Source: Desulfobacteraceae bacterium (GTDB taxonomy: Bacteria > Desulfobacterota > Desulfobacteria > Desulfobacterales > JAABTS01). From it: a stretch of 39,459 bases of DNA. The stretch spans positions 1 to 39,459 of the forward strand of contig JAABTS010000037.1 of assembly GCA_011389735.1 (NCBI GenBank), written 5' to 3'. Positions 7,995 through 32,575 of the stretch are shown piece by piece. How positions within the stretch are numbered: position 1 is the first letter of the stretch; every line of letters starts with the position of its first letter. Both the position numbers and the translations under genes were made by a program. Below the pieces are notes generated by a model. It did no database searches. It saw only the letters and a program-made list of their open reading frames with translations, and was not told the origin of the DNA.

Positions 7995-8154
7995 ATTACG
8001 ATCCATTCCTTTCAAACCCAAAATCAACCTGTATTTTAAAAAAAACGCTATATGTATTTACGGCCGGATGGTTCAGTGTCATCGAAATTCGGTAAGGCCG
8101 TACCATAGTAAAAAAAAAGTTTCAAGCCTTTTTTACCGATCCATTCTATTTATC

Positions 8155-8262
8155 GGCTGAACGAAAACCTCCTCACGCTTCCAGGAGATTTGCAATCCCC
8201 GTCGGCCACAAGAGGAATACGCAGGTTGCAAACCCGCTCAGAACCCTATTTTACGGCTTTTC
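8155..8262 (+). repeat. PAL-C dispersed repeat, copy 1
   Basis: About 105 bp, starting GGCTGAACGAAAACCTCCTC and containing GGTTGCAAACCCGCTCAGA near its right end. A near-identical copy in the same orientation lies at 32471-32575, and shorter related pieces (GGGTTTGCAACCC type) lie in 21350-21626. It fills most of the gap between the kinase gene and the cytochrome gene. No gene is seen in 7995-8290. Confidence 0.7.
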
Positions 8263-10939: not shown

Positions 10940-11077
10940 GGCATCCTTCATAAACCCAGGAAAGTGGTTGACACTTTCCAAGTCGGGATCGGGATCGCTA
11001 TCGGGATCGAAACAATTCGCTCTCGATAGAGATAGAGATCCCGATTTCAAAGTGTAAACTGACAGATGAAGGATGCC
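10940..11077 (-). repeat. MITE-like element, copy 2 (inverted relative to copy 1)
   Basis: The same 12-bp terminal inverted repeats as 25-112 (GGCATCCTTCAT at 10940-10951 and ATGAAGGATGCC at 11066-11077), with the interior in reverse complement. It is 50 bp longer because the middle carries an extra block of ATCGGG/TAGAGA short repeats that is itself partly palindromic. The 10784-11195 gap otherwise holds a putative promoter for the downstream operon and no gene. Confidence 0.8.
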
Positions 11078-11116
11078 CGGAATTCTGTAAATTCATGATT
11101 TTCCCGAGGGAACTCA

Positions 11117-23716: not shown

Positions 23717-23790
23717 GTTAAAACGGCGGCCGGCTACGCCGGTTGTTTTAACAATTGATTTATCATCCTAAACATGAAGGAGGCGACATT

Positions 23791-24804
23791 ATGTTGGTGG
23801 TCATGAACAAAAACGCTACACAGGCTGAAATCGACGCGGTCATCACAGCCGTCGAGTCCCACGGATACACGGCGAGACCTATTCCCGGGGGCGAACGAGT
23901 GTCTATCGGCGTGTTGAACAACGAAGGCGCTGTGGATCATTCCCGTTTTTCGGCGCTGTCAGGAGTTAAAGAAGTCATTCCGGTCACCAAGCCCTATAAG
24001 CTGGTCGGTCGTGAATTCAAGTCCGAGGACACGATCGTTCGCGTGGGGGATGCGTTGATCGGCAACAGCCGTTTAACCATTATAGCGGGCCCATGCGCTG
24101 TGGAAAGTGAAACGCAGGCGTTGACGATCGCCGGGCATGTCAAGGCGGCGGGGGCGCAAATTTTCCGGGGCGGAGCGTTCAAACCGAGGACATCCCCGTA
24201 TTCGTTTCAGGGCCTCGGAGAGGATGGTCTCAAAATTCTCGCAAAGGTTCGCGAAACTACCGGGCTTGCGGTCGTGACCGAAGTTTTGGATCTGGAAACA
24301 TTCGATCTTGTCGAAAAATACGCGGACATGGTTCAGATCGGCGCCAGAAACATGCAGAATTTTAGCCTGCTACGCCGGGCGGGGCGGTCCAAAAAGCCGG
24401 TTTTATTGAAGCGGGGGATGTCCGCCACGGTCGATGAGTGGCTCATGGCCGCCGAGTATATTCTGGAAGGCGGAAACGACCAGGTCGTTTTATGCGAACG
24501 CGGGGTCCGCACGTTTGTTCGCCACAGCCGGAACACTTTGGATATTTCCGCGGTTCCGGTGGTGAGCCGGGAGAGTCATTTGCCGATTATCGTTGATCCA
24601 AGCCATGCGGCTGGATATCGTGATCAGGTGATGGCGTTGAGCCGGGCGTCAGTTGCGGCTCAAGCCCACGGCCTCATTGTCGAAGTCCACCATGATCCGG
24701 GCAACGCCTTGAGCGACGGCGCCCAATCTCTATTGCCGGATCAATTCAAGAAGTTGTGCGCCCAGGTTCGATCTATGCATCAAATGCTAATCGAAACCCT
24801 GTAA
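23791..24804 (+). CDS. aroF: 3-deoxy-7-phosphoheptulonate (DAHP) synthase, type I-beta
   Basis: First enzyme of the shikimate pathway: phosphoenolpyruvate plus erythrose 4-phosphate to DAHP. 337 residues from the ATG at 23791, which has AAGGAGG 7 bases upstream; the frame is open 36 bases further but that start is not supported. The N-terminal ~75 residues (MLVVMNKNATQAEIDAVI...) form the ferredoxin-like regulatory domain of the Thermotoga/Bacillus-type enzymes. The barrel follows with IAGPCAVES, GAQIFRGGAFKPRTSPYSFQ, QIGARNMQNF, VLLKRGMSAT and PIIVDPSHAAGYRD, holding the substrate and metal residues. It is governed by the leader-peptide attenuator directly upstream and followed 37 bp later by aroB. 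Allosteric inhibition by aromatic amino acids through the N-terminal domain is known in the family and likely here. Confidence 0.95.
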   Translation: MLVVMNKNATQAEIDAVITAVESHGYTARPIPGGERVSIGVLNNEGAVDHSRFSALSGVKEVIPVTKPYKLVGREFKSEDTIVRVGDALIGNSRLTIIAGPCAVESETQALTIAGHVKAAGAQIFRGGAFKPRTSPYSFQGLGEDGLKILAKVRETTGLAVVTEVLDLETFDLVEKYADMVQIGARNMQNFSLLRRAGRSKKPVLLKRGMSATVDEWLMAAEYILEGGNDQVVLCERGVRTFVRHSRNTLDISAVPVVSRESHLPIIVDPSHAAGYRDQVMALSRASVAAQAHGLIVEVHHDPGNALSDGAQSLLPDQFKKLCAQVRSMHQMLIETL

Positions 24805-24841
24805 AATACATTTCGAATTCCGCATCAGGAGGTAAACAATT

Positions 24842-25867
24842 GTGAAAAAGATCGACATCAAAGGCGAATCGGGAACGTCGTCCATTCTGGTCGGCGAATC
24901 GGTACAGGCGCTTCCGGCTTACATCCCGGCGGAAGGAACGGTGATGATCACCGATGGTCGAGTAAGATCCCTTTACGGACATGCATTCCCGGATTGTCCG
25001 GTCATCGAAATCGGAGAGGGGGAAGGGATTAAAACATTGGATACGCTTTACGACATTTTTGATCGGTTGATCGATTTGGAGGCGGACAGATCGACGATGA
25101 TCGTGGGCGTTGGAGGCGGAATTGTCTGCGATATTACGGGATTCGCCGCATCGACCTATCTCCGGGGCGTCCGGTTCGGATTCGTATCCACCACCCTTCT
25201 ATCTCAAGTGGACGCCAGTGTCGGAGGAAAAAACGGTGTCAATTTCAAAGGCTACAAAAACATGGTCGGAGTGTTCAACCAGCCGCAATTCGTTATCTGT
25301 GACCCGGAGACGCTGGCGACTCTGCCCCGCAGGGAAATTTTATGCGGTTACGCGGAAATCATCAAACACGCCGCTATCGCGGACGCCGGACTGTTTTCTT
25401 TTCTTGAACGAAATTACAAGCAAGCCCTTGATCTTGAACGGCGTATCGTGGAACGAAGTGTTTACGATTCGGTCGTGATCAAGTCCGGAATCGTGAACCG
25501 GGATGAACGGGAGCAAGGCGAACGGCGAAAGCTTAATTTCGGCCACACCTTCGGCCACGCGGTGGAAAAAACGGCCGGCCTGCCTCATGGGGAGTCGGTT
25601 GCCGTGGGCATGGCGCTGGCGGCCCGTCTTTCCGTTAAACGAGGAATGCTTTCGGATTCCGACGGTAAGCGGATTCAGGATTTGATCAGTCATTTCGAAC
25701 TGCCCGTCAAAACCGACGCGGATCGCGGGATGCTTCTGGACGCTCTCAGAAGGGACAAAAAGCGGGAAGGGGACAAAATTCACTTCGTTCTGCTCGATGC
25801 TATCGGCCGGGCGGTCGTCCAGGATGTCGATATCGCCGAACTCGATGCGGCGATTAACGAGTGGTAG
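24842..25867 (+). CDS. aroB: 3-dehydroquinate synthase
   Basis: Converts DAHP to 3-dehydroquinate, the second shikimate step, using NAD and a divalent metal. 341 residues, starting at GTG with AGGAGG upstream. The NAD site is VGVGGGIVCDITGFAASTYLRGV (about 82-104, split here only in description), with TTLLSQVDASVGGKNGVNF next. EIIKHA and LNFGHTFGHAVE provide metal-binding Glu and His residues. It forms a two-gene operon with aroF, so attenuation of aroF should also control aroB. The family length is slightly short but complete. The other shikimate genes are not here. Confidence 0.95.
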   Translation: MKKIDIKGESGTSSILVGESVQALPAYIPAEGTVMITDGRVRSLYGHAFPDCPVIEIGEGEGIKTLDTLYDIFDRLIDLEADRSTMIVGVGGGIVCDITGFAASTYLRGVRFGFVSTTLLSQVDASVGGKNGVNFKGYKNMVGVFNQPQFVICDPETLATLPRREILCGYAEIIKHAAIADAGLFSFLERNYKQALDLERRIVERSVYDSVVIKSGIVNRDEREQGERRKLNFGHTFGHAVEKTAGLPHGESVAVGMALAARLSVKRGMLSDSDGKRIQDLISHFELPVKTDADRGMLLDALRRDKKREGDKIHFVLLDAIGRAVVQDVDIAELDAAINEW

Positions 25868-25903: not shown

Positions 25904-25972
25904 TTATGTTGAATGTTGAATGTTGAATGTGAGTCCCCTCATTTAGCATTTAACATTTAGCATTCAACATAA
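25904..25972. repeat. Heptad-repeat hairpin, copy 1
   Basis: Three TGTTGAA heptads (25907-25927) on the left face a right arm of variant heptads (TTTAGCATTTAACATTTAGC then ATTCAACATAA). Both ends read TTATGTTGAATG in opposite directions. The centre, in reverse complement TGAGGGGACTCACA, is shared with copies at 31185-31254 and 39352-39459. It sits between aroB and the Cas7-like operon. It could act as a transcription barrier but has no T run. Confidence 0.75.
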
Positions 25973-25981
25973 ATATGATTG

Positions 25982-26069: not shown

Positions 26070-29000
26070 ATGCTATTAAAAGGCCAAATCATCGCGGAAT
26101 CACCAATTTATCGCGGAAACTCCCGCAAAACCTTGTTTACGAGAGACGGCGACGGCAAACACCGGCTCGTTTCCCTGGCCGGGGAAATAACCGGCACGGC
26201 TCAGAGTTTGATGGACGCCTTTATCGGCAAGTCGAAGAACGGCAAAAACATCGGTCTGATCGATGCGGCTTGGAAACGGTTGTATGGTGATGAAATGCCC
26301 GCCGGCTTGATAAAAAAGGTCGATTGTAAATTGAAAAAGGAATTTTATCCCCGGAACAATTTTTTCGATCTGCGCATGGGAATTCGCCTTGACGAGGATC
26401 GATGGGCCGCGGAATCCAACGCCAACTATAAAATGGAAACCGTCCTTCGAAACGCGGTGTTCGATATGAATATCGACATCAATGACGCCGTTCTTGGAAA
26501 AGGCGACACCAGGGACCGGCTGTTTTACGTGTTGAATGAAATCAAGGAAGGCCGTTTCTGGTTTGGGGCCGGGAAAAGCAAGGGGCTGGGACGTTTGAAG
26601 TTGGAAATGAAGATTCCGTTTTCATCATCCGCGCCGCCGGACAAAATCCAAAAAGGCGTCAACCATCTGACCGTCAATATGGCCCTGTCATCCCAAAACC
26701 CGGTACTGGTCGGGTGGAACTGGGGAAAAATCGATCCTCAGACCACCTCGTTCGCTTCTATCGACGCAAGCCTGCTCCTCGACGCCATGAAAGGGATTCC
26801 CGAAAAAATCCGCAAGCGGCTGGATCTCGCTATCGGCGGCCCTATACTCAACCCCGAGGACTGGAAATCCAAATTAAACCAGTACCTGCCCAAAACCATA
26901 GCGGTCTGGCTGTCCGAAAAATCCGGGGGTGAAGTCGAATCGTTCGTTCTCTCGTCGTCCAGCTTTGAAAAGCTCGGAAAAGGAAAACATGCAGTGTCCG
27001 CCAAAATTCTGGAAAAAGTCAAGCCTTTTGTTGATCAAACGTTCAAAAGTGTGGAAGAGGCCGAGGAAGAATTTAAAAAACGGCTCGGCAAAAAAGCCAA
27101 CATGGCCAAGCGTATTGTCAAGGAGATGGAAAAGAAAGTCGAGGCGAGTCTTGATATCGATAAGGACGCTTACGACAAACTTACGTCCGAACTGGGACTG
27201 GATGTGGATAAGGAAGATCTCGAACAGGCGATCGAAGATGAAACCCGCCTGGAATCACTTCTTTCCACCGCATGTCAAAAAATCACGCCCAATTTATATG
27301 AACAGGTGGATCAACAGATTAAGCTGATTCAGAGCGACGCATGGGTGGACGCTGAAATCAAGAATCGCCAGGAGCATTTGCTGATTAAAAAAATGCTTCG
27401 GGACGGAAAAATCAGCGAATATCAATGGAATGACCCTCAGATGACTCCGGAGGGCGTCAGCACCGGCGTCTGGCGTGAATTTCTGGAGGCTCACAGCAAG
27501 GTTCGGTTTCGCCACATGCTGAACAGTCAGAATTTGCAAAAAAGTATCGTCAACGATGAAAACCAGATTGAGTTTTTAAAGACCTATCGAGACCGGACGC
27601 GTCAGGAACTGGCCCGTACGGAAAATATCGACTTCAGAGCCGGCGGCGTCCAAAACAGCGAGATTTCGAGGAAGTACGGAAAACCATACGATACGGTGTT
27701 CATGCGAATGCTGACCTGGCGCAAATCGTCCGATCAAAAGGACGGTTGGGAGGCTTATATTCCCGGCGGGACCTTGAAAGGCGCATTCAGAAAACGGGCG
27801 TCCCAGGTGTTGAAGACCCTGTGGGGCGAATCGCGGAAAACCCAGGAGATTCTGACATCTTTATTCGGAGAACAAGGTCGCCAGGGCAAGATCCTGTTTT
27901 CGGACGCCTATCTGGTCGATCCCGATAATATGGACAAAAAATGGTGTTCAATGGACGGAATCCGGGTCAATCCCAAAACCGGCGAACCGATTGAAAGCAC
28001 GAAACGGGATTATCTTTACGCCTATGGCGATGACATTAAATTCCAGCTCAGAATGGACATCCAGGATATCCGGCCTTCGGATATGGACGCCGTCACCGTA
28101 TTCAAACATCTGGTGAACGATTTCCGGAGCGGCGATATTCCGATCGGCGGTGAAAAAACGAGCGGATTCGGATGGGTCGAATCCCAATTGAAAAGCATTG
28201 AATGGCTTACTACGGACGTATCCGATCTATCCAGATCCGTTGTCGGAGATTGTAAGATGACGGCTGAAGGCGTCTGGAATCGTTATGAAGCGGTCGGCGC
28301 GGAGGCGGAAAGCGTGTTCGCCGCCGTTGCCCCGATCAAGGCGGAACAGGAAATCAAAGGCCCTCCAAACGCACGGGAAGGATTTATTTCTCATCGCATG
28401 TTCGGCGGATACTGCGGCATGCTTCATGTGGGCCTCGACCCGATGACTCCTCTGACGGTCAAGGAAAGCGGCGAACCCATGATCGAGACCACATTTGAAG
28501 GCCATCCGGTCAATGGATGGGATTTTTACTCCATGTCCCCTCCGGACGCCGAAAACCGAAGTCCGGACAGAAAATACGCGGTTCCCGGCCGGAGCCTCAA
28601 GGGGATGTTGCGTCATATCTATTCCATTGCCACCAACACGAGCGGCGAAAGTCCGAACCTGAACCGGCTGAATCCCGCGGACAGTCTTTTCGGATGGGTC
28701 GGAAACGGGCCCAATCAGGCGATTATGGGCAGATTGTCCTTTACTTTCGCCGGATTTGAATCTCCTGAATTGAAATGGTACAAAGCGCCCTACCCTTACG
28801 GCCAGTGGACTTATGAGAACGGAAACTGGACCAGCAAGGACAAAGGCCCCGCCAAAAAAACCGTTATCGCGGATTCCTGGCGCGTATTTACGCATGCGCC
28901 CCTCGCTCCGATTGTCGAGCAAGTTCCGGAATTCAAACCCGATACATACCAGGCTTCCTATTTCAGGGCTGTTACGCCCGGCGCATCAGCCCGTTTCTCG

Positions 29001-29285
29001 ATCCGCTTCTGGAACCTTACGGAAGAAGAAATGCAGCGGCTCGTATGGTGTGTCGCACTGGAATCCGGGTTGGCTCATAAAATCGGAAACCATCGGCATC
29101 TGGGATTCGGCAGCGTTAAATTGTCGATACTGCCGGAAAGTTATTTGATTCAATGGAACAACCGGTATTCGTCCCAGTCCAAAGATGAATGGCGCGAAAA
29201 ATTGAATCCCGCCGATTTTATGAATCCGTCGGTGGTCAAGAATTATGAGCAGCTAAAAACGGCCTTGAATGCTGACGCCGTTTGA
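26070..29285 (+). CDS. Large multi-RAMP (Cas7-like) fusion protein, 1071 aa
   Basis: A CRISPR-type RAMP protein with at least three Cas7-like regions in one chain. Region 1 (1-185) opens LLKGQIIAESPIYRGN and ends with a glycine loop GAGKSKGLGRLKLEM (166-180). Region 2 starts near 200 (LTVNMALSSQNPVLVGW), is interrupted by about 200 charged, mainly helical residues (about 300-500), and resumes with YIPGGTLKGAFRKRASQVL (563-581) and IPIGGEKTSGFGWVES (690-705). Region 3 (about 770-1020) has YAVPGRSLKGMLRHIYSI (836-853) and HKIGNHRHLGFGSVKLSI (1003-1020), similar to the TIGR03986-like RAMP family. The helical insert recalls the Cas11-like part of type III-E Cas7-11, but this chain is shorter and no array or cas10 is nearby. 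AAGGAGAG precedes the ATG. Expected role: RNA-binding backbone, possibly an RNA endonuclease; specificity unknown. Confidence 0.88.
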   Translation: MLLKGQIIAESPIYRGNSRKTLFTRDGDGKHRLVSLAGEITGTAQSLMDAFIGKSKNGKNIGLIDAAWKRLYGDEMPAGLIKKVDCKLKKEFYPRNNFFDLRMGIRLDEDRWAAESNANYKMETVLRNAVFDMNIDINDAVLGKGDTRDRLFYVLNEIKEGRFWFGAGKSKGLGRLKLEMKIPFSSSAPPDKIQKGVNHLTVNMALSSQNPVLVGWNWGKIDPQTTSFASIDASLLLDAMKGIPEKIRKRLDLAIGGPILNPEDWKSKLNQYLPKTIAVWLSEKSGGEVESFVLSSSSFEKLGKGKHAVSAKILEKVKPFVDQTFKSVEEAEEEFKKRLGKKANMAKRIVKEMEKKVEASLDIDKDAYDKLTSELGLDVDKEDLEQAIEDETRLESLLSTACQKITPNLYEQVDQQIKLIQSDAWVDAEIKNRQEHLLIKKMLRDGKISEYQWNDPQMTPEGVSTGVWREFLEAHSKVRFRHMLNSQNLQKSIVNDENQIEFLKTYRDRTRQELARTENIDFRAGGVQNSEISRKYGKPYDTVFMRMLTWRKSSDQKDGWEAYIPGGTLKGAFRKRASQVLKTLWGESRKTQEILTSLFGEQGRQGKILFSDAYLVDPDNMDKKWCSMDGIRVNPKTGEPIESTKRDYLYAYGDDIKFQLRMDIQDIRPSDMDAVTVFKHLVNDFRSGDIPIGGEKTSGFGWVESQLKSIEWLTTDVSDLSRSVVGDCKMTAEGVWNRYEAVGAEAESVFAAVAPIKAEQEIKGPPNAREGFISHRMFGGYCGMLHVGLDPMTPLTVKESGEPMIETTFEGHPVNGWDFYSMSPPDAENRSPDRKYAVPGRSLKGMLRHIYSIATNTSGESPNLNRLNPADSLFGWVGNGPNQAIMGRLSFTFAGFESPELKWYKAPYPYGQWTYENGNWTSKDKGPAKKTVIADSWRVFTHAPLAPIVEQVPEFKPDTYQASYFRAVTPGASARFSIRFWNLTEEEMQRLVWCVALESGLAHKIGNHRHLGFGSVKLSILPESYLIQWNNRYSSQSKDEWREKLNPADFMNPSVVKNYEQLKTALNADAV

Positions 29286-30144
29286 CTGGATACGCACAGC
29301 CCGGACAGGCGCCGAACTTATTGCGACAATCCAGGAGGTCAATGAAAACAGGGCGTTTTATGAGGAGGCCCCGGGTTCGCTCGGGCCTCCGGTTTCAGCG
29401 CTGAACAGGCCCTGTAAGCGTTGTTGGATTTATCATCGGGAGCCCGGCGATGATTATTGTCTATGCTGCCTGCGTATCATGGCCACTGCTTCCAAACTGA
29501 GAAAAAAATCTTATCAAAGTGTGGTTTTATGGGGATTTGTCGACCGGATTCCTGAGATAATCAGCGGGAGCCGGAGCCTGTATGTCGAAATAGCCGGCGC
29601 TGCATACATTGTGGACGATCAACGGTTTCTGCTCATACTTCCCCGTTTGATGCTGATTTCGTGGTTGAGAGACCTTTTCGTGTATCACGGGGAAGAGATT
29701 CACGGACTGTTTCAACTCTTCCCCACCCTGGGCGACTCAAAACGCGGATGCATGAACGACATCCTCGTGCGGGCGGTTCATCATGAATCACGGTTCCCCA
29801 TGGATAAACTACGGGTTCGGTTTTTCCCGGATCCGTTTGGTTTATTCGCGCCTCATGAAAGAGAACAAAAAGGGCTGTTAACGTTTGAAATCCGTGATTT
29901 TTTCCGGATGATGGAGTCCGCGTCCATTTTTCGGACTCTGTTGCGGCCGGAGGAGCAGCAAATTCTACTGGATCTGGCGTCGATCAAAAATCCGAATGAG
30001 GAAAAATTTTATTGGGGACGGTTTCTCGGCCTTTTGACGCCCGAAGCCAAAGACATGCTCAACGCCTGGAACTTCAGGCAATGGCCGTCGAATCAAATCC
30101 AACTGATGTACGAGCTTCTTTCTTATGTTCCATTTAAAACTTGA
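29269..30144 (+). CDS. Unknown Cys-rich protein in the Cas7-like operon
   Basis: 291 residues, not recognised. It overlaps the RAMP gene by 17 bases and the Cas6-like gene by 20 bases, so the three genes are translationally coupled and the product is almost certainly a partner of the other two. A probable zinc site is formed by CKRC (Cys49, Cys52) and YCLCCLR (Cys64, Cys66, Cys67) in the N-terminal part. The middle (about 85-150) is beta-rich with YVEIAGAAYIVDDQRFLLIL, and the C-terminal ~80 residues are helical with many Trp and Leu (FYWGRFLGLLTPEAKDMLNAW). There is no membrane segment. It carries no HD, GGDD or nuclease motif that I can see, so it is not a Cas10 remnant by motif. It could be a small-subunit or Cas5-like replacement, which is speculation. 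Confidence 0.8.
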   Translation: MLTPFDWIRTARTGAELIATIQEVNENRAFYEEAPGSLGPPVSALNRPCKRCWIYHREPGDDYCLCCLRIMATASKLRKKSYQSVVLWGFVDRIPEIISGSRSLYVEIAGAAYIVDDQRFLLILPRLMLISWLRDLFVYHGEEIHGLFQLFPTLGDSKRGCMNDILVRAVHHESRFPMDKLRVRFFPDPFGLFAPHEREQKGLLTFEIRDFFRMMESASIFRTLLRPEEQQILLDLASIKNPNEEKFYWGRFLGLLTPEAKDMLNAWNFRQWPSNQIQLMYELLSYVPFKT

Positions 30145-31123
30145 TATCCTCAGATATCTGATAGTTATCAAATTCAAAGGAACCCTGGCCAATGTTCCCA
30201 TATCGTTTTCAGGCGAATTTTTAAGCATTGTGGGCAACGCCGTGGCGGATCGTTTACCCACGGTTCAAGCGAGACCCTGGCGAAAATCGCTCGCCGAATG
30301 GAACGAGTCCGGAGGCTTTTTGGGGGCCCATAGGAACAAGGACGCCGAAATCCCTTTGCATCCCTGGCCCATTGAAGCGGTGGCGGTTAAATATCAGCAC
30401 AAGCGGTCTTACGGATATGATGAATTGGTGTTCCTGGAATTGAAATTGATCGGAAACGCCGCGGATCATGGTTTTTTTTTGGAAGTGTTGCTTCCAGCCA
30501 TGGAAGAGGCCGGCCGAACGCCCATCGAGGAGGCTCGCCATTCAAACCGCTTGTGGGGCGCCTATGAAATTTCAGCGGTTTACATCGCAAGCGGCTCGAA
30601 ATGGCGGCCTATCGCCGAAGAAGGAAGTATCGATCTTGACTACAGGCCCAAACCAAATCAATGGATTGAAGATCTGAAGCTCGTAAGAACCGATGGATCC
30701 CGGATGCTCGACAAAATTACATGGCTGACGCCTTTTGATCCTTATCCCCAGGAAGTTGACGGCGAAGATGTTCCGGTCAAACTAGAAAAAGGGCTGCCCC
30801 GGCCGGACGTGATATTCGACCAGTTAATGATACGCCTCAACTCCCTGACTCCCGGAAAGGGCGAATCCCTGGAAAGACTTTTAGACGGCTTCACCGAAGA
30901 AGAAATATTGCTGTTCGAAGGCGCACGGGATGTATCACGCCGTATTCCGGTGCTCCGGACGGACGCACGGCAAACAAACCATTTCGGCCGGCGGCGTATG
31001 ATGGGAACCCAAATTTTCGCCACCTCGATCCCAGGCCATATCATTCCTTTTTTGACGCTGGCGTCCATATTGCATATCGGTAGATATACTCAATATGGAT
31101 TCGGAACTTTCATTATCGAATGA
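30125..31123 (+). CDS. cas6: Cas6-like CRISPR RNA endoribonuclease
   Basis: 332 residues. The C-terminal 60 residues fit the Cas6 C-terminal RAMP domain (PF10040): TDARQTNHFGRRRMMG (the R.S.RQ...M..G region), then FATSIPGHIIPFLTLASILH and IGRYTQYGFGTFIIE with the glycine-rich loop. The N-terminus (LIVIKFKGTLANVPISFSGEF) is the first RAMP-fold strand and helix. Cas6 cuts CRISPR precursor RNA at repeat hairpins and stays bound to the product. The catalytic residue of Cas6 varies and I cannot assign it. The gene is last in the operon, overlapping the unknown gene by 20 bases. A Cas6 implies RNA with repeated hairpins as substrate; no CRISPR array is in the window, so it must act on a remote array or on another RNA. 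Confidence 0.82.
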   Translation: MFHLKLDILRYLIVIKFKGTLANVPISFSGEFLSIVGNAVADRLPTVQARPWRKSLAEWNESGGFLGAHRNKDAEIPLHPWPIEAVAVKYQHKRSYGYDELVFLELKLIGNAADHGFFLEVLLPAMEEAGRTPIEEARHSNRLWGAYEISAVYIASGSKWRPIAEEGSIDLDYRPKPNQWIEDLKLVRTDGSRMLDKITWLTPFDPYPQEVDGEDVPVKLEKGLPRPDVIFDQLMIRLNSLTPGKGESLERLLDGFTEEEILLFEGARDVSRRIPVLRTDARQTNHFGRRRMMGTQIFATSIPGHIIPFLTLASILHIGRYTQYGFGTFIIE

Positions 31124-31180: not shown

Positions 31181-31184
31181 TTTG

Positions 31185-31254
31185 TGTTAAATGCTAAATT
31201 ATTTATGTTGAATGTTGAATGTTGAATGTTGAATGGGGATTCACACCCAACATA
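31185..31254. repeat. Heptad-repeat hairpin, copy 2
   Basis: TGTTAAATGCTAAATT is followed by TTATG and four TGTTGAA heptads (31206-31233), the core GGGGATTCACA, then a shortened right arm CCCAACATAA. It has the same core as copies 1 and 3. It lies between the cas6-like gene and the SLOG/AbiGi-like gene. Confidence 0.75.
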
Positions 31255-31295: not shown

Positions 31296-32450
31296 ATGAA
31301 TTCGGCCGGCTCCTTACGAAATATTCACACCGGAAAAAATGTTGTTTACACCGGCCCGGTTTTTAACCGGCCTTTTGCAACGATTATCAATTCCCACCAA
31401 TCGCTTTACCCGGAATCCGCCCATTCCTGGGTTAGATCGACAATCCGTGCGGTTGAATCGGCGGCCTCCTTCAACGCAATTCTTATCGGTTCGACCGGGT
31501 TGAGCAGCTACGACCTTGTACTCTGGCGCGCCGGACGCATCGGCGCCGATCAGATTGTCGTCATGCCGGTCGCGGGGCGTGATCGAATGGATAAAATCAT
31601 TGCCGAATGCCTTTTCAATTTCAACCTGGACGAACGAAAAACCGCGTTCTTATGTTTCATTTCAAATGAAAGTCCGGCAAAATCCCCTGAACGAGATCGT
31701 ATGGTCATGGCCGCGGCGGATTTGGTTTATCCTGTGTCCGTCAGAAGAACAGGCCGGATGCGGGCGCTTTTATCCGATCTGCCCGAATCCGGAATCGACC
31801 GAACGTTTGAAATCCCTTTTGAGACGGTAAAACGCCGCCCCGTTAATTGCCGGGTCGATCATCCGGACGCCCTGGAATTGGACGGCGGATACCTGACCCA
31901 TTGGACACGCCGTTCCAAAGGCCCTTTTCCCGGCGAGAAGCCGGCGGATTATTATCAATCCATTCTGTCCATGAACGAAATGTACGGGGGATCGGCATTC
32001 CATGCATTACAGCGCATTTTAACGACAGAACGAATTTATTCGAGTTCGAATAATATCCGGGGAAAACACGCCATTGTATCGTTCACATCGTTGCCTCCGC
32101 ATCAGATGGCCGAATTGATGATTTGGGAACGCGGTCGTGTACGGTACGCATTTGAACCGTTCGGGGTCGCCGTGAAAACATCGGCGATGAAAAAAATCGG
32201 TGCAAGGCCGGTCATCTATGGAGATAAGGCGTTGTACAATCGATTGAAAGAAGCGGATCAGCCGTTTTACCAGTATCACGGAAAAGATGGTAAATGGCGC
32301 CGGGAACGTGAATGGCGGTTCGCCGGAGATTTCCATCTACGCAATATCCCCGTTGACGACATTCGAATCCTTGCACATTCCAAACCTTATGCCGACCTGT
32401 TGCAAAACGGCGGATTCGGGCGTTATAAAATTATATGCCTGCAAAAGTAG
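31296..32450 (+). CDS. SLOG/DprA-like protein with AbiGi/DUF2971-like C-terminal domain
   Basis: 384 residues in two parts. Residues 27-170 look like a SLOG/DprA-type Rossmann domain: FATIINSHQSLYPESAHSWV, then AILIGSTGLSSYDLVLWRAG (61-80) and DQIVVMPVAGRDR, a nucleotide-binding arrangement. Residues about 195-365 resemble the AbiGi/DUF2971 fold: YLTHWTRRSKGPFPGE, AFHALQRILTTERIYSSSNN, HAIVSFTSLP, EPFGVAVKTSAMKKIGARPV and the closing REREWRFAGDFHLRNIP with its conserved EW. AbiGi was named from abortive phage resistance. As far as I recall, the same two-part protein also occurs alone in diverse bacteria. It starts 173 bp after the cas6-like gene, behind repeats, with no strong ribosome-binding site, so linkage to the RAMP operon is positional only. 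Confidence 0.55.
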   Translation: MNSAGSLRNIHTGKNVVYTGPVFNRPFATIINSHQSLYPESAHSWVRSTIRAVESAASFNAILIGSTGLSSYDLVLWRAGRIGADQIVVMPVAGRDRMDKIIAECLFNFNLDERKTAFLCFISNESPAKSPERDRMVMAAADLVYPVSVRRTGRMRALLSDLPESGIDRTFEIPFETVKRRPVNCRVDHPDALELDGGYLTHWTRRSKGPFPGEKPADYYQSILSMNEMYGGSAFHALQRILTTERIYSSSNNIRGKHAIVSFTSLPPHQMAELMIWERGRVRYAFEPFGVAVKTSAMKKIGARPVIYGDKALYNRLKEADQPFYQYHGKDGKWRREREWRFAGDFHLRNIPVDDIRILAHSKPYADLLQNGGFGRYKIICLQK

Positions 32451-32470
32451 GAGCTGATTGTATAGTTAGT

Positions 32471-32575
32471 GGCTGAACGAAAACCTTCTCACGCTCCAAG
32501 GGGATTTGCAATCCTCGTTAGCCAAGAGAGTGGACACGCGGGTTACAAACCCGCTTAGAGCCGTATTTTGCTGAT
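32471..32575 (+). repeat. PAL-C dispersed repeat, copy 2
   Basis: GGCTGAACGAAAACCTTCTC at the left and CGCGGGTTACAAACCCGCTT near the right match 8155-8262 over its length, in the same orientation. The copy overlaps the 3' end of the tatD-like gene and supplies its last codons, a sign of insertion near the gene end. Confidence 0.7.

Follow-up and report, generated by a model that had tools for sequence, protein, structure and literature searches.

The three genes at positions 26070-31123 of the window, the 39,459-base stretch of Desulfobacteraceae DNA analyzed here, are an intact member of the recently named and little-studied CRISPR subtype III-I and not a new system. All three predicted proteins pass the curated NCBIfam cut-offs for III-I: Cas7-11i with 1761.5 bits (cut-off 800), Cas10i with 392.2 bits (cut-off 175) and Cas6i with 236.7 bits (cut-off 160). 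A preliminary description of the locus had presented it as a Cas10-less operon of uncertain affiliation; profile search instead places all three proteins in a named subtype, an outcome that the description itself had listed as grounds for refutation. III-I was first described in Nature Microbiology on 6 November 2025 (PMC12669027), where it is reported from more than 160 genomes, chiefly of Thermodesulfobacteriota and Chloroflexota. The same paper assigns three Cas7 domains and one Cas11 domain to the effector, describes the Cas10 as extremely diverged and devoid of the N-terminal polymerase domain (DALI Z 10.9), and predicts RNA cleavage from aspartates. A literature search excluding preprints and most subscription papers returned no second paper on III-I; the literature found treats the subtype through sequence and models in this single paper. 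Here we add the III-I gene order across loci, the conservation of the first gene overlap, a survey of array absence and a diverged variant from genome G236.

The window comprises the whole of contig C284, one of 477 in an assembly of 6.5 Mb, and therefore anything beyond the contig ends is out of sight. The open reading frames occupy positions 26070-29285 (1071 aa), 29269-30144 (291 aa) and 30125-31123 (332 aa) of the plus strand, and overlap by 17 and 20 nt, exactly as had been described. The 17-nt overlap of cas7-11i and cas10i (29269..29285, plus strand) is kept, with ATG or GTG as the start, in 51 of 60 loci, a recurrence beyond chance. When the 20-nt overlap of cas10i and cas6i is extrapolated to 56 loci, the start position reads ATG in 17 and some other codon in the remaining 39, and no conservation is claimed for it. 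No array-like repeat is present in the 39-kb contig, consistent with the array-less locus of the preliminary description; the 39,459 bases also contain no detectable tRNA and no Rfam match at gathering thresholds. A 384-aa gene downstream (31296-32450) was rejected as a part of the module, as tblastn finds a homologue in none of the 70 other loci; it has no Pfam or NCBIfam match, and the PADLOC model PDC-S31 matches it at E 0.034 only. Several repeats were observed in the contig. On either side of the operon (25904-25973 and 31182-31243) lie seven-base tracts of ATGTTGA and its reverse, partly as inverted repeats, and these occur again near the contig end (39335-39459). Two copies of a 68-nt repeat with 82% identity (8147-8214 and 32463-32530) are separated by 24 kb, and an 11-kb segment is enclosed by a 56-nt inverted repeat (57-112 and 10940-10995, 98% complementary), which has additional arms at 20-65 and 11037-11082. 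A DAHP-synthase-like gene and aroB (23755-25867) precede the module; two open reading frames clustering with window frames of these lengths are found in another locus (L087, 6981-8928), but downstream of its module.

The fused effector, cas7-11i (26070..29285, plus strand), matches the NF049957 model over residues 1-1070. Pfam RAMPs is recognized in two stretches of the protein (66.4 bits, cut-off 22.1), in line with its earlier reading as a multi-Cas7 fusion related to type III. The first Cas7-like domain covers residues 1-225 or so (26070..26744), its boundary being approximate and the model confidence low in parts. It is followed by a mostly helical region at about residues 226-515 (26745..27614), defined by model secondary structure and alignment; this is the putative Cas11 part, a label that comes from PMC12669027. 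The second Cas7-like domain (approximately residues 530-715, 27657..28214) contains the best Pfam RAMPs stretch (562-704), and the third extends over residues 770-1050 or thereabouts (28377..29219). Each Cas7 domain carries an aspartate that is invariant in all 56 Cas7-11i sequences (D28, D541 and D818), while D26 of the first domain is kept in 55 of the 56. D28, D541 and D818 are candidate catalytic residues. A structural model built from the 56 sequences (pLDDT 76.8, pTM 0.69) matches III-E Cas7-11 with Z 25.7 over 612 residues, aligning residues 1-1070 to 404-1552 of 8d1v_A, and has a best Foldseek E of 1.4e-22. Parts of the model also match III-D chains: residues 1-760 resemble chain D of 8s9x (Z 16.5), and residues 770-1070, with the third Cas7 domain, resemble chain E (8s9u_E, Z 21.3). 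The window protein is 47-59% identical to the 55 other aligned Cas7-11i. Profile comparison with the III-E protein of its own genome gave nothing beyond 49 columns.

The middle gene (29269..30144, plus strand), previously left as an unknown protein with cysteine motifs, passes the Cas10i model NF049958 and has a Cas10-like predicted fold, so that the operon is not Cas10-less: its second protein is a Cas10 remnant. The earlier statement that the window holds no cas10 stands for ordinary sequence searches and fails against the Cas10i model and the fold; the supposed unknown third subunit does exist, and is now identified as a reduced Cas10. The fold model (55 sequences, pLDDT 92.1, pTM 0.88) finds its best VIA-align match in the III-D Cas10 8s9t_C (Z 10.7; rmsd 5.7 over 277 aligned residues). 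The 50 structural matches listed are without exception type III entries; Foldseek is weaker, with a best E of 5.5e-3. Against most Csm1 and Cmr2 chains the match starts at around residues 226-261 of those chains; on 8s9t_C it spans residues 8-553, these ranges giving the first and last residue only. Sequence profiles of Cas10i retrieve no significant relative in the PDB, and comparison with two Cas10-like proteins of the same genome yields nothing significant. The CxxC...CxxC motif (C49, C52, C64 and C67; 29413..29469, plus strand) is kept in 55 of 55 sequences and is probably a zinc ribbon. The GGDD string is absent from the 291 residues; residues 115-118, between two model strands, read VDDQ, and relatives commonly have H at 115 and D at 116. 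Two classifications were rejected on these grounds: a Cas10-free system that would found a further class 1 type, in view of the Cas10i model match and the Cas10-like fold, and an ordinary signaling type III system (III-A/B/D) with a full-length GGDD Cas10, in view of the 291-aa length and the missing GGDD.

The last gene, cas6i (30125..31123, plus strand), encodes a predicted pre-crRNA endoribonuclease of 332 aa. Its proposed identity as a dedicated Cas6 is upheld by Pfam CRISPR_Cas6 (26.7 bits, cut-off 25) and by NF049959. Pfam recognizes Cas6 in 36 of 42 aligned Cas6i members, and the sequence profile has no significant relative in the PDB. H115 is common to all 42 sequences. At position 323 the window protein has Q, where the other 41 of the 42 rows have H; this residue also sets the window apart from the reference III-I system of Desulfonema magnum (WP_207677910/WP_207677911 in PMC12669027). 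The reference, our locus L089, is otherwise like the window in its fused Cas7 domains, reduced Cas10 and gene order, and its Cas7-11i is 59% identical to that of the window.

The effector of III-E, Cas7-11 or gRAMP, is likewise a single-chain multi-Cas7 protein, and the structural match to it is extensive. The two subtypes are nevertheless distinct, as had been proposed: the window effector scores 58.9 bits against a III-E cut-off of 700, is shorter, and aligns to 8d1v_A only from residue 404, that is, III-I is without the N-terminal Cas7 of III-E. Unlike III-E, the window operon has cas10i as its second gene, as well as cas6i. Membership in III-E was rejected on the score and the presence of a cas10 gene. 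For DiCas7-11, Asp429 and Asp654 have been put forward as the catalytic residues of target cutting, and crRNA processing relies on His43 as a catalytic residue (PMC9629832); residue 43 falls in the N-terminal part missing from III-I, which would fit the separate Cas6 of III-I. By fold, the Cas10 nearest to Cas10i is that of the III-D complex (PDB 8s9t and related), which, unlike the window operon, is built of separate subunits and has a larger Cas10 (555 residues in 8s9t_C).

To the Cas7-11i cut-off, 22 of 291 genomes of the order respond, and none of 14 control genomes. An alignment scan of one genome per species in 84,980 species produced 70 loci, a lower bound as the scan used two peptide patterns; the record titles include Desulfobacterota-type bacteria, Chloroflexota, KSB1, Poribacteria and others. 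Together with the window this makes 71 loci, several of which are gene fragments. The three-gene order, which the preliminary description had proposed to look for in relatives, recurs without exception: all three genes are present in 56 of the 71 loci, and in one order in all 56. Of the 15 loci without cas6i, 11 lie less than 130 nt from the contig end; in the other four (L106, L109, L142 and the fragment L154) the contig is long enough for the gene. L142 and L109 show neither cas10i nor cas6i, though the contig continues for more than 2 kb, and in genomes G120 and G130 cas7-11i is split over two frames. On a quick tree of the 56 sequences and the G236 protein the phylum labels need 7 changes against a minimum of 3, where Myxococcota rests on titles saying only 'Deltaproteobacteria' and 9 rows are unlabelled; this pattern is compatible with possible transfer of III-I between phyla. 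A draft scaffold of the gammaproteobacterium Piscirickettsia salmonis LF-89 (L151, NZ_AMFF02000190.1) contains the first 215 residues of a Cas7-11i at 56% identity, either through transfer or through contamination. Relatives of Cas7-11i and of the G236 fusion protein were found neither in viral contigs nor on plasmids, and phages yielded no relative of Cas7-11i.

No widely conserved fourth gene accompanies the module. Clustering of open reading frames across the loci groups cas7-11i in 67, cas10i in 55 and cas6i in 54; the most widespread family after these occurs in 12, all counts being lower bounds owing to greedy frame calling. Queries from the window's own genome with cas1, cas2, cas6, cas10 and a TPR-CHAT-like protein (identified by eye and compared for III-E) had no match in the 71 loci at E 1e-4; the first four would miss distant homologues. 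No convincing array was found in the 71 loci (1.03 Mb; at least 2 kb on both sides in 37 and at least 5 kb in 22) with a finder that detects the arrays of G236 and of contig C53 in the window's own genome. Its sole match (L094, 15719-16224) was judged by eye to be leucine-rich-repeat coding sequence, and cruder candidates in L053, L057, L059, L061, L068, L089, L105 and L132 to be tandem or dispersed repeats. In PMC12669027, the subtypes described as mostly array-less in the Extended Data Fig. 2 legend (III-B, III-C, III-E, III-F, IV-B and IV-C) do not include III-I.

The best hint found that the family is crRNA-guided comes from a diverged relative with its own array, in a genome (G236) of the same order as the window's host. 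Its operon (L072 8386-13674, contig C24) encodes the fusion, a protein with the cysteine motif and Cas6, followed by nine 36-nt repeats about 240 bp after cas6. The fusion protein, 890 aa long, has three Cas7 domains and is without most of residues 223-423 (window numbering), the putative Cas11 region; it scores 641.5 bits to NF049957, under the III-I cut-off of 800, and lysines align with D26 and D28 of the window. The second protein (287 aa, with CRRC and CFLC) aligns to Cas10i in hhalign at E 7.4e-4 with a probability of only 26, and its identity as Cas10i is therefore tentative. The third is a Cas6 (hhalign to Cas6i, E 2.4e-12). Comparison of the array with phages gave no match, and the repeat does not fold better than shuffles (z 0.11). 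At E 1e-30 the fusion protein has matches in 23 of the 388 genomes examined from the class, and G236 alone has a full-length match in one piece; in the family of G236 (86 genomes) there are three other matches, apparently of the ordinary form. Primase-like and RadC proteins nearby indicate that the operon may sit on a mobile element.

Other CRISPR components exist in many of the hosts. Cas1 is found in 17 of the 22 III-I genomes of the order and in 134 of the 269 others (151 of 291 overall; Fisher p 0.015, a test that ignores kinship and genome size). It is also found in 29 of 48 further III-I genomes, a set that includes L141, L150 and L151 (partial cas7-11i only) and excludes L132, L153 and L154, and thus in 45 of 69 altogether with D. 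magnum counted once. The search found no Cas1 in the remaining 24 of the 69, and a guide-supplying system is hence not evident in every host. Pfam Cas6, found in 18 of the 22 genomes, was set aside as evidence, since Pfam misses some cas6i of those same genomes. A repeat-pair pattern ending ATTGAAAC has at least 4 matches in 19 of 68 III-I genomes (the L151 genome left out, D. magnum counted once), with matched letters inspected for some of the 19 only; the reversed-pattern control has 0 in all 68. The pattern, which sees that repeat ending only, has no match in 34 of the 68. Genome G031 has 18 repeat-pair matches and no Cas1 match. In the window's own genome, contig C53 carries an array with at least 3 repeats, whose repeat folds weakly better than shuffles (z -1.44), beside a type III locus (TIGR03986, 449.5 bits) that we read as III-D-like; the genome also has Csm1 on C94 (563.9 bits) and a III-E effector on C476 (1393.6 bits). 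Given Cas1 and the repeat pairs in hosts, and the array and other type III loci of the window's own genome, it is possible that III-I borrows crRNAs in trans from distant arrays of its host. In the window's genome, the III-E effector frame ends early beside two frames judged by eye to be transposase-like (L009, 5008-11573), a piece like its C-terminal end lies beyond these (L077, 4641-5051), and a gene that by eye is TPR-CHAT-like lies upstream of the effector, all on C476. On C316, a RAMP domain is fused to an apparent AAA/SMC-type ATPase, so judged by eye, in a single 1016-aa frame (L010, 248-3298).

These observations are best accommodated by a system that most probably cuts RNA under guides made elsewhere in the genome, and we consider it likely that the operon is a III-I effector module working along the following lines. 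Cas6i would cut precursor crRNA transcribed from distant arrays, and Cas7-11i would bind the mature crRNA stretched out over its fused Cas7 domains; this single chain would take the place of the several Cas7 subunits and the Cas11 subunit that type III complexes ordinarily contain. Cas10i, with some 290 residues and no GGDD, would complete the complex as a structural part, giving no cyclic-oligoadenylate signal. Matching RNA would be cut at sites set by the conserved aspartates of the Cas7 domains.

The retention of a dedicated Cas6 with the effector, and the array that follows cas6 in G236, would also agree with a module that keeps its own guides next to the operon in a non-canonical form, such as a single repeat, a degenerate array or a small RNA gene. 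We regard such a local source as unlikely: a simple word count over 63 upstream regions finds shared words only of Shine-Dalgarno-like and A/T-rich kinds, no Rfam family matches the window, and the 71 loci contain no convincing array. The same lack of adjacent arrays and of cas1 or cas2 beside the module (by own-genome queries), together with the 24 of 69 genomes where Cas1 was not found and the lack of a widely conserved fourth gene, would also agree with III-I being an RNA-binding or RNA-processing complex that acts on host RNAs and is no longer a guided defense. The invariance of the candidate catalytic aspartates, the retention of Cas6 and the existence of an array-bearing relative make this very improbable. 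Some relatives have split (G120 and G130) or incomplete (L142 and L109) modules, as a decayed remnant might, but the window has three intact frames, conserved residues and a conserved junction, and we give scarcely any weight to the idea that its operon is such a remnant.

Guide supply in trans may be carried one step further. Under this extension, which we put forward tentatively and hold to be possible rather than probable, III-I would depend obligatorily on borrowed guides, as a self-contained effector of three genes that occurs in several phyla, has no array of its own and uses Cas6i to mature the crRNAs of any host arrays. G236 would then be an array-bearing, Cas11-less sister form showing the earlier cis-guide state of the lineage. 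As a compact complex that combines one large protein with a reduced Cas10 and a dedicated Cas6, and that is predicted to cut RNA, III-I is a possible RNA tool. It also represents a separate case of a multi-subunit complex fused into one chain, and the survey of its loci makes the origin of III-I guides a testable question.
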